Assembly (NCBI GenBank): GCA_030145325.1
Contig: JAQYVW010000017.1
Location: forward strand, 1 to 49,705
DNA: 49,705 nucleotides
Source: Desulfurivibrionaceae bacterium
GTDB lineage: Bacteria > Desulfobacterota > Desulfobulbia > Desulfobulbales > UBA5123
Direction of reading: 5' to 3'
Below are positions 6,651-8,956 of this stretch, piece after piece; position 1 is the first letter of the stretch, and every line of letters starts with the position of its first letter. Under the pieces are notes generated by a model that was given only the letters and a program-made list of their open reading frames with translations, had not been told where the DNA came from and did no database searches. The position numbers and the translations under genes were made by a program.

Positions 6651-7457
6651 TTATTGGTTGTTCTGTTCAATAGGTAAAACAAGTCTAAAACCCAGGAAGT
6701 CGTTGCGAAAGTGTGGTTTGCTCCAGTCGCGGTTTGCGGCGCGGACAAACCAGGCGTCAGTGGCCCAACTGCCGCTGCGAATAACCCGGTTGCCGTTGGC
6801 GGAAGGAGCCGGACTCAACGGGTCGATTACTGGTTCCGGATTATAGGCGCTGCCGTCCCAAGAGTCTGCGCACCATTCCCAAAGATTGCCGTGCATATCG
6901 TAGAGTCCCCAGGCGTTAGGTTGTTTTTGCGCCACCGGATGTACGGTGTCTTCGGCGTTGTAGCAATACCAACCCATGGCGTCCAGGGCTGGATCAAAAG
7001 CGCAGGCTGGTTCCGTGATTTTGCCGTTGGCAAAGGCGGTGGTACTGCCAGCACGAGCAGCGTATTCAAACTCAGCCTCGGTGGGGAGCCGGTAATTCAG
7101 GCCAGATCTGCGGTTTAAGGTGCGGATAAAATCTTGCACCTCATCCCAAGAGACGGTTTCCACTGGGCAATCGGCACCGCACTGGGCGAAATGGGCGGGA
7201 TTGTCGCCCATAACCTCTTGCCATTGTTTTTGCGTAACTTCGGTGGTCTGCATGTAAAAAGATCGGCTTAGGGTCACCTGATGCTGGTTTTCATCTGCGT
7301 CACGAAATGGTTCCTCCGCCGGACTGCCCATCACAAAGGTACCTGCTGGCAACAATTTGAAGGTCATTCCGATTTCGTTACGGAAATCCGCAGCTACGGA
7401 AAGGGATGCCATTGCGAGCCAAATCATTGCCGTGGCGGTTGCGATCATTTCTCTCAT
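6651..7457 (-). CDS. Exported FGE/SUMF1-fold protein
   Basis: The 268-residue protein has a signal peptide (MREMIATATAMIWLAMASLS, then VAA) followed by a formylglycine-generating-enzyme-like domain. Family motifs seen are GMTFKLLPAGTFVMGS, TEVTQKQWQEVMG, PVETVSWDEVQDFI, YRLPTEAEFEYAARAG, NAWGLYDMHGNLWEWCAD and RSGSW...RAANR...GFRLV. In true FGE two redox cysteines lie near the last block; here that stretch has none, so sulfatase activation is unlikely and a binding or scaffold role is more probable. ATG 7457 is chosen because AGGAGG lies 6 bases upstream and the signal peptide begins there; longer versions would run through the ahpC terminator. It is downstream of and separate from ahpC. Confidence 0.85.
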   Translation of the reverse strand: MREMIATATAMIWLAMASLSVAADFRNEIGMTFKLLPAGTFVMGSPAEEPFRDADENQHQVTLSRSFYMQTTEVTQKQWQEVMGDNPAHFAQCGADCPVETVSWDEVQDFIRTLNRRSGLNYRLPTEAEFEYAARAGSTTAFANGKITEPACAFDPALDAMGWYCYNAEDTVHPVAQKQPNAWGLYDMHGNLWEWCADSWDGSAYNPEPVIDPLSPAPSANGNRVIRSGSWATDAWFVRAANRDWSKPHFRNDFLGFRLVLPIEQNNQ

Positions 7458-7494
7458 CTCATGCCTCCTGAATAGTTTTTCTGTCATCTCCGCA

Positions 7495-7531
7495 GAGAAA
7501 AGGGCGTGACGATCACTGTCGTCACGCCCTT
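7495..7531 (-). terminator. Intrinsic terminator after ahpC
   Basis: A perfect 13-bp stem (AAGGGCGTGACGA with its complement) and a six-base loop lie about 40 bases past the ahpC stop, followed on the minus strand by TTTTCT. It separates the ahpC transcript from the FGE-type gene. Confidence 0.85.
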
Positions 7532-7572: not shown

Positions 7573-8163
7573 CTATTCGCCATGTTTACTCAGGTACTCG
7601 GCCACGCCTTCGGCGGTGGGCTTCATCGCCTCTTCGCCCGGCTTCCAGTTAGCCGGACAAACTTCGCCGTGTTTTTCAAAGAATTGCAGGGCATCAACCA
7701 TCCGTATGGCTTCATCAACATTGCGGCCCAAGGGCAGATCGTTAACCACGGCATGGCGGACAACACCTTTCTGGTCCAGCAGGAATAAACCGCGCAGGGA
7801 GATCCCGTCCGGCAGGAGTACACCGTAGGCCTCGGAAATTTGTTTGTTGAGGTCGGCCACCAGCGGGAACTGGATGTCGCCGATACCGCCTTCCTTCACC
7901 GGGGTGTTTTTCCACGCCAGATGGGAAAACTGTGAGTCCACCGATACGCCGACCAGTTCACAGTTTCTTTTCTGAAATTCAGCCATGGCTCGGTTGAAGG
8001 CCAAAATCTCCGAGGGGCAGACAAAGGTGAAATCCAGCGGATAGAAAAAAAGAATTACATACTTCTCACGTAGGTCGGAAAGGGTAAATTCACTAATGGT
8101 ATTGTCGGCCAGTACCGCCTGGGCGGTAAAATTAGGGGCCTCTTTAGTTACTAAGGTACACAT
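7573..8163 (-). CDS. 2-Cys peroxiredoxin (AhpC/Prx1 type)
   Basis: Thiol peroxidase that reduces hydrogen peroxide and organic peroxides in the cytoplasm. The 196-residue product shows the peroxidatic site PLDFTFVCPSE (Cys49) and the resolving cysteine in GEVCPANW (Cys169), the pattern of typical 2-Cys enzymes. GVSVDSQFSHLAW and the C-terminal YLSKH match the family. ATG 8163 has GGAGGAACAATCC before it; longer frames are not supported. The Cys-rich winged-helix gene ends 40 bases upstream on the same strand, so the two probably share a transcript. The reductant (AhpF, thioredoxin or rubredoxin) is not encoded nearby. Confidence 0.95.
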   Translation of the reverse strand: MCTLVTKEAPNFTAQAVLADNTISEFTLSDLREKYVILFFYPLDFTFVCPSEILAFNRAMAEFQKRNCELVGVSVDSQFSHLAWKNTPVKEGGIGDIQFPLVADLNKQISEAYGVLLPDGISLRGLFLLDQKGVVRHAVVNDLPLGRNVDEAIRMVDALQFFEKHGEVCPANWKPGEEAMKPTAEGVAEYLSKHGE

Positions 8164-8203: not shown

Positions 8204-8443
8204 TTATACTGCTGCGCGGCCGGTAGCGGTGATCGCATACTTGCAGCGGGCTGGGCTCTCGACATAACCTTTCTTCTTGAGGGCGGTAAGTTTGCAGCTC
8301 ACTGATTTACTCTCCATGCCGCTGGCGGCAGCAATTTCCTTGCAGGCGCAAGGTTCGCTCTGATTGGCCATGGTGGTGAGAATCTTTTTTTGTTCGTCGG
8401 TAAGATCATTTTTGCAGCCACATTTCTTTGTTGCACACGCCAT
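8204..8443 (-). CDS. Small cysteine-rich winged-helix regulator
   Basis: A 79-residue protein with a predicted winged helix-turn-helix (about 14-75). The helix pair is CKEIAAASGMESKSVSCKLTALKKKGYV, cited here by position 34-61. It holds seven cysteines (3, 8, 10, 32, 34, 50, 67), including CGC and CAC pairs, which suggests metal or iron-sulfur binding or thiol switching. It sits 40 bases upstream of the peroxiredoxin gene on the same strand with a good ribosome site (GGAGGAACAAA), so it may be an autoregulated redox sensor of this operon (inference). I recognise the fold type but not a named family. Confidence 0.75.
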   Translation of the reverse strand: MACATKKCGCKNDLTDEQKKILTTMANQSEPCACKEIAAASGMESKSVSCKLTALKKKGYVESPARCKYAITATGRAAV

Positions 8444-8518: not shown

Positions 8519-8722
8519 TCATGATTCTTCTCCGTTGCCGTTCCGCTGGTGACTACGTTGTTCCCGCTCTGCCTCCAGGCGAATCTTGTAGGCACAATCC
8601 TGGACGATGCCAAAGAGGAGTCGGCAGCCATCATCTTCGGCGGATGCCTGTCCTTCATCGGCGAGTATGAGCATCTCGCGGCTCAATTTAATTACCTTGC
8701 GGATGTTGTCGTCGTCTTGCAT
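8519..8722 (-). CDS. Small conserved hypothetical protein
   Basis: A 67-residue acidic protein with the core MLILADEGQASAEDDGCRLL and then GIVQDCAYKIRLEAERE, a helical pattern I associate with small uncharacterised proteins of Desulfobacterota and relatives. It has two cysteines, no membrane segment and no known fold. It lies immediately downstream of a near-consensus sigma-54 promoter, but the predicted transcript start is only two bases before this ATG. Translation may therefore be leaderless or begin at an internal start such as the Met at 8674. The next gene on the strand starts 76 bases after its stop. Function unknown. Confidence 0.6.
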   Translation of the reverse strand: MQDDDNIRKVIKLSREMLILADEGQASAEDDGCRLLFGIVQDCAYKIRLEAEREQRSHQRNGNGEES

Positions 8723-8734
8723 GCCCTAAATCAT

Positions 8735-8750
8735 TACAAGAGCCGTGCCA
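8735..8750 (-). promoter_or_regulatory. Sigma-54 (RpoN) promoter
   Basis: On the minus strand the sequence is TGGCACG-GCTC-TTGTA. The -24 block is a perfect match to the sigma-54 consensus TGGCACG-N4-TTGCW and the -12 block has one mismatch (GT for GC), with correct spacing. The predicted start of transcription is about 8724. An inverted-repeat site array 70-220 bases upstream fits an activator-binding region. Confidence 0.65.
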
Positions 8751-8820
8751 TAGTTGATTATTTGTGAATTCGTTAGTTCTTTTAGGGGGTTGTGGCGTGG
8801 TGGGGCGAAAAAGGGAGGTG

Positions 8821-8956
8821 TGTCTCATTTGTGGTTGGTGAGACATTCATGGCAGGTGCTATGGATGTCATTCAGTGGGGAGATGGCCCATATATGGGGG
8901 AGGGGCTTTGTGTCTCATGTTTGAGACACAGTTCTGGACAGAGACAGTCTGAGACA
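8821..8956. promoter_or_regulatory. Array of TGTCTCA/TGAGACA inverted repeats (candidate activator sites)
   Basis: Three clusters are seen. TGTCTCA (8821) faces TGAGACA (8839) with 11 bases between. A tight palindrome TGTGTCTCA-TGTT-TGAGACACA spans 8909-8930. An imperfect half-site (AGAGACA, 8940) and a perfect TGAGACA (8950) follow. The array lies upstream of the sigma-54 promoter in the position expected for an enhancer-binding protein. The gene to the right ends here on the same strand, so the region serves only the leftward genes. The regulator is not identified. Confidence 0.65.

Follow-up and report, generated by a model that had tools for sequence, protein, structure and literature searches.

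A predicted sigma-54-dependent oxygen- and peroxide-defence operon with a conserved TGTCTCA/TGAGACA array and a predicted leaderless first gene in Desulfobulbales

Positions 8519-8956 of the window, by which we mean the whole 49,705-nucleotide stretch of DNA analysed here, very probably hold the control sequences and the first gene of an oxygen- and peroxide-defence operon that depends on sigma-54 and is run by an activator whose gene is unlinked, on contig C88 of the same genome (Table 1). The promoter, the array upstream of it, the identity of the activator and the logic of the cargo are predictions supported by comparative evidence. A sequence-only reading of the window had proposed an enhancer-binding protein acting on RpoN at this site, and the proposal is now backed by a conserved array and box, by the presence of rpoN in the genome (PF04552 at G000:C33, E=2.9e-61) and by a co-occurring candidate activator.

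Table 1. Features of the predicted operon, its control region and its candidate activator (window coordinates unless a contig is named)
Feature	Position	Strand or linkage	Remarks
Distal direct repeat of half-sites, 10 bp apart	8940..8956		AGAGACA 8940-8946, TGAGACA 8950-8956
Distal inverted pair TGTGTCTCA-N4-TGAGACACA (N4 = TGTT), half-site spacing 12 bp	8909..8930		exact 9-bp palindrome
Proximal inverted pair TGTCTCA-N11-TGAGACA, half-site spacing 19 bp	8821..8845		putative activator site
Sigma-54 -24/-12 promoter box TGGCACGGCTCTTGTA	8735..8750	minus	GG at -24 = 8749/8748; -12 base = 8736
Predicted +1 (8724), 2 nt ahead of ATG (A at 8722)	8722..8724	minus	spacing rule from -12 element
67-residue protein, first gene of operon	8519..8722	minus	predicted two-helix hairpin
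Cys-rich winged-helix protein, second gene	8204..8443	minus	LexA_DNA_bind above cut-off
2-Cys peroxiredoxin	7573..8163	minus	AhpC/TSA and 1-cysPrx_C
Terminator-like hairpin after peroxiredoxin gene	7500..7531	minus	13-bp stem, 6-nt loop, then TTCTCT
Candidate activator gene, own genome	G000:C88:72883-74622	unlinked to array	one-component enhancer-binding protein, ~580 residues

The near-consensus box that had been read on the minus strand differs from TGGCACG-N4-TTGCW at one position. As a single match it is not beyond chance, since five boxes with two or fewer mismatches were observed in the 49.7-kb window against 5.5 expected. With up to three mismatches, however, a box at the same distance from the ATG is found in all 14 Desulfobulbales genomes that carry the 67-residue gene, a result that shuffles reach in 0.7%. 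T0, G1, G2, T12 and G13 of the box are invariant in the 14, and TGG and TTG are invariant except for one T. The second base of the -12 element is C in nine genomes, A in two and T in three, these three being of the own genus; this GT in place of GC counts against our explanation.

Upstream of the box, at a distance of about 71-221 bp, lie the half-sites of the array. About five exact copies of TGTCTCA would be expected over 49.7 kb, and five are present (8821, 8911 and, on the minus strand, 8839, 8922 and 8950), yet all fall within 136 bp (8821-8956). The array had been described as three clusters of one inverted motif, which holds for the motif array itself but not for three equal clusters, as there are two inverted pairs plus single half-sites; the distal pair is present exactly as it had been written out. 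No second TGTCTCA-N3-12-TGAGACA occurs in the 3.36-Mb genome. Among relatives, the proximal inverted pair, spaced by 19-22 bp, is found in 12 of the 14 genomes, an inverted pair of 12-13 bp also in G001 and G002, and direct repeats of half-sites spaced 9-10 bp in eight of the 14. Half-site spacings from 12 to 22 bp are loose for a rigid Fis-type dimer, and this too counts against our explanation.

Array and box are both kept in 14 of 14 genomes, where the 420 bp upstream of the 67-residue gene hold 74 TGTCTC/GAGACA half-sites in total against 2.6 in shuffles (shuffle maximum 9). Loss of array and box in close relatives, which had been named beforehand as a refuting result, was not observed. 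A functionless chance cluster of motifs, a reading for which one might point to the one box of such quality that the window should hold by chance, is refuted by this conservation at fixed positions, and we consider it vanishingly improbable. The idea that the motif is a general genome repeat was also rejected, its frequency outside the main locus being close to that of a reversed-pattern control in most genomes.

In all 14 genomes the box begins 27-30 nt ahead of the ATG of the 67-residue gene, and the predicted 5' leader is therefore just 1-4 nt in each, leaderless or nearly so. The start two bases ahead of the small frame's ATG, which had been remarked on as odd, is thus what the spacing rule gives here and a predicted trait conserved throughout the 14 genomes, all of which also have a C immediately before the ATG. 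Boxes that could be found in other families of the phylum stand farther from the ATG, so the predicted layout looks specific to the order. Differences between copies of the small gene in family f15 are biased to the third codon position (69, against 26 at the first and 14 at the second), which indicates that the gene is coding from codon 2. A start at the internal Met17 was rejected, as codons 2-17 already show the third-position bias (69 vs 26 and 14).

The three downstream genes are those named in the sequence-only reading, namely the 67-residue protein, a Cys-rich winged helix and a 2-Cys peroxiredoxin, the last two being backed by domain matches. In 12 of the 14 operons the small gene has the peroxiredoxin gene downstream of it, and six of the 14 contain the winged-helix gene. 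The hairpin that follows the peroxiredoxin gene has too few T for a consensus terminator scan. Beyond it, at 6651-7475 on the minus strand, is a gene that reads as a formylglycine-generating-enzyme/sulfatase-modifying-type protein, conserved in G001; it is probably outside the operon, because the hairpin intervenes.

As the Cys-rich winged helix is encoded by the second gene, one could suppose that the array is its operator and that the operon is autoregulated independently of sigma-54. We reject this reading, which is scarcely plausible: the array is retained in the eight of 14 operons that are missing the winged-helix gene, it goes together with the activator gene and with that protein's type of helix-turn-helix, and the box at its fixed distance would be left unexplained.

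The candidate activator combines a degenerate N-terminus resembling ArsC/LMW phosphatases, a PAS domain with a Cys4-His motif, a GAFTGA-containing AAA+ domain and a Fis-type helix-turn-helix. Residues 3-127 match ArsC both by profile (1y1l_A, E=2.5e-14) and by fold (Foldseek, E=1.2e-7), and the catalytic CX5R loop is missing from this domain, the loop reading SSKSPLRP or NIGSSLKP, for example, with no Cys. In the PAS domain C186, H187, C195, C199 and C202 are invariant. Sigma54_activat (PF00158) is found in the orthologues and in the own protein, GAFTGA and Walker A (GESGTGKE) are present, and HTH_8 (PF02954) scores above cut-off in two orthologues. The sensor is predicted with moderate confidence (pLDDT 73.5). 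Among relatives in the phylum the PAS cysteine motif is mostly retained while the N-terminal domain is not, and the motif is therefore the likely core sensor, judging from this pattern of retention. No cut-off of a curated NCBIfam equivalog was reached by the activator, PrdR being missed at 373-388 bits against 795.

A search for an NtrC-type activator gene near the array had been suggested, and one was found. In five relatives (G003, G010, G016, G036 and G062) it immediately precedes the array and the small gene on the same strand, and it also adjoins homologues of the small gene in other families. The sensor region and the intact 67-residue gene share one distribution, both being present in the same 13 genomes out of 243 in the order (Fisher p ~1.6e-19, uncorrected for relatedness). 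In addition to these 13, G009 has a divergent GAF-PAS form of the sensor, and G002, a 78%-complete assembly in which the small gene is broken, is without the sensor region.

The own genome encodes 14 full activators, and it could be argued that another of them, such as a two-component regulator, uses the array while the C88 protein co-occurs by descent; the C88 gene is, after all, unlinked and has no array of its own. We find this very improbable in view of the adjacency in five genomes of the order and in other families, the shared pattern of presence and absence and the unique match of the helix-turn-helix. The recognition helix VGRATLYRFL is present only in the C88 protein among the 14, and it is common to its orthologues, to the G009 activator and to the f3 activators of G018 and G049, which adjoin the same motif. 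At L162:3595-3754 of G073, also of family f3, a response-regulator-type activator gene is followed by TGTCTCAATTTGAGACA and TGGCACGCCTTCTGCA. Since the G073 activator has a different recognition helix despite the similar array nearby, such an array alone is no proof of a C88-type regulator, and in that genome a site of this kind may serve another regulator.

Further candidate targets link the motif to function. G009 lacks the 67-residue gene, yet a perfect TGGCACGACTATTGCA and two motif pairs stand upstream of a small uncharacterised gene that is also found in the operons of G010, G036, G039 and G062. In G064, a second full array and box precede a ferritin-flavodiiron operon. Taken on their sequences, these two targets are independent confirmations of the link. 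The product of the small gene in G009 (L033:9305-9700) belongs to a family with the pattern NEIDWxMTPEKAxxMxLEWGxGW and no Pfam match, which may resemble DVU0772 of Desulfovibrio, presumably a PerR-regulon gene. G009 may hold yet another target at L160:3667-3817, where TGTCTC half-sites lie 110-150 bp upstream of TGGCATGTTCCTTGTA, facing an unannotated gene of 314 residues.

The cargo of the operons that carry the 67-residue gene varies among relatives and, as annotated, is always oxygen or ROS defence: peroxiredoxin, rubrerythrin, superoxide reductase (desulfoferrodoxin), ferritin, flavodiiron protein and cydAB. A sigma-54 switch for peroxide defence had been flagged as unusual when the window was read alone, and the cargo of the relatives, together with the second targets in two genomes, strengthens the reading as peroxide and oxygen defence. 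In G016 (L025), genes that read as cydAB-like lie 551-3258 bp past the small gene, between it and the winged-helix and peroxiredoxin genes.

The same circuit of sigma-54 and activator might instead answer to nitric oxide or another reactive species in the manner of NorR, with flavodiiron protein and peroxiredoxin as the detoxifying enzymes. Flavodiiron genes do occur in several operons, and NorR is among the better-scoring NCBIfam models of the activator (337-339 bits). That score, however, falls short of the NorR cut-off of 476, the ArsC-like and PAS-Cys sensor is unlike the GAF sensor of NorR, the own operon has no flavodiiron gene, and rubrerythrin, superoxide reductase, ferritin and cydAB point to oxygen or ROS. 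A nitric oxide signal thus seems unlikely to us, and we retain oxygen or an oxidant as the probable signal.

The circuit appears to extend beyond the order into other families of Desulfobacterota, as the sensor region is present in 37 of 395 genomes across the phylum and a homologue of the small protein shares a fragment with it in 10 of the 16 neighbourhoods that were read, mostly within ~3 kb. Several of these neighbourhoods also have rubrerythrin or superoxide reductase genes. In G018 and G049 of family f3 (L159 and L165), a PAS activator, a TGTCTC array, a sigma-54 box and a distant homologue of the 67-residue protein are followed by a PEP-CTERM protein, which means that neither the motif nor the helix is confined to oxidative defence. 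Full ArsC-PAS activators also lie a few kilobases from Prx-SOR-ferritin-FprA clusters in G558 and G340 (L208 and L209), members of other families; the open frame of the G340 activator is 344 aa. No clear TGTCTC cluster was seen near these two activators, and the DNA motif may have diverged at their loci.

The 67-residue protein has no family in Pfam, NCBIfam or PADLOC, and its AlphaFold2 model is a two-helix hairpin with a mean pLDDT of 90.5. D42, A44 and E54 show no variation across the phylum, and Cys33 almost none. A ferritin-like half-bundle of the EncB type was considered for this hairpin and rejected, as the best Foldseek hit had E=0.5 and no PDB sequence match fell below 0.25. All named copies of the gene come from metagenome-assembled Desulfobulbales or from unplaced Deltaproteobacteria and Proteobacteria. 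The small protein keeps constant company with the activator even where the cargo differs, as with the PEP-CTERM protein of f3, which suggests that it may be a regulatory partner of the activator.

We propose a model in which oligomers of the activator would bind the TGTCTCA/TGAGACA half-sites 70-220 bp upstream and loop to the closed complex of RNA polymerase and sigma-54 at 8735-8750. The PAS-Cys sensor would report oxygen or an oxidant, upon which the activator would open the closed complex, and transcription would begin 1-4 nt ahead of the ATG, so that the first gene would be leaderless. DNA binding, looping, the passage of an oxygen or ROS signal through the Cys cluster, the point where transcription starts and the part played by the 67-residue protein are what we infer from the arrangement of genes and sites. 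It is tempting to speculate, and we do so tentatively, that the hairpin is a dedicated partner of the activator, acting as feedback or as redox co-sensor and made from an obligately leaderless transcript as the first product under oxidative stress; small protein, activator and array might then form a portable module for different cargo.

Promoter control by an enhancer-binding protein acting on sigma-54 is a mechanism of known kind. NorR, with its GAF sensor and its own binding sites, regulates flavodiiron NO/O2 reductases; there, as here, a one-component enhancer-binding protein has several upstream sites and detoxification cargo that can include flavodiiron proteins, whereas the present circuit has an ArsC-like and PAS-Cys sensor, TGTCTCA half-sites and a wider oxygen/ROS cargo. 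The PerR and OxyR peroxide regulons use sigma-70-type promoters and a Fur- or LysR-type sensor; their cargo, including peroxiredoxin and rubrerythrin, is similar, but here sigma-54 with an AAA+ activator takes the place of that machinery. We make no use of the absence of Fur/PerR as an argument, since it is just a hint: Fur-family proteins number one in the own genome, none in G009 and one to three in the others. In the PspF/PspA phage-shock operon, the first gene of a sigma-54 operon feeds back on its activator, a logic that the 67-residue protein may putatively share, although there is no sequence relation.

Within the same phylum, the sigma-54 regulome of Desulfovibrio vulgaris features one-component activators whose sites lie together with sigma-54 promoters; peroxi-, ahpC and rubredoxin are absent from its main text (PMC4641369). 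In alpha-, beta- and gamma-Proteobacteria, the peroxiredoxin family COG0450 is enriched among predicted sigma-54 targets, alongside nitrogenase and hydrogenase assembly genes (PMC12316311). The predicted link between sigma-54 and peroxiredoxin is thus similar, but the classes are different and no such activator or array was found in the passages of that report consulted here. In the open-access literature, with subscription journals outside this scope, no description was found of the activator, the array, the small protein or the leaderless arrangement, nor of a sensor combining a dead ArsC domain with a Cys-motif PAS. The regulator, the small-protein family and the leaderless layout therefore appear to be undescribed.

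Regulons of the sigma-70 type, such as PerR and OxyR, are usually credited with defence against peroxide and oxygen. In this large anaerobic lineage of oxygen-sensitive, sulfur-cycling bacteria, that defence appears to be under a sigma-54 switch that is strict and all-or-none. The circuit yields a named candidate regulator, a DNA motif and a directly testable list of targets. It also defines a small-protein family tied to the regulator and provides a conserved example of a sigma-54 mRNA that is predicted to be leaderless.
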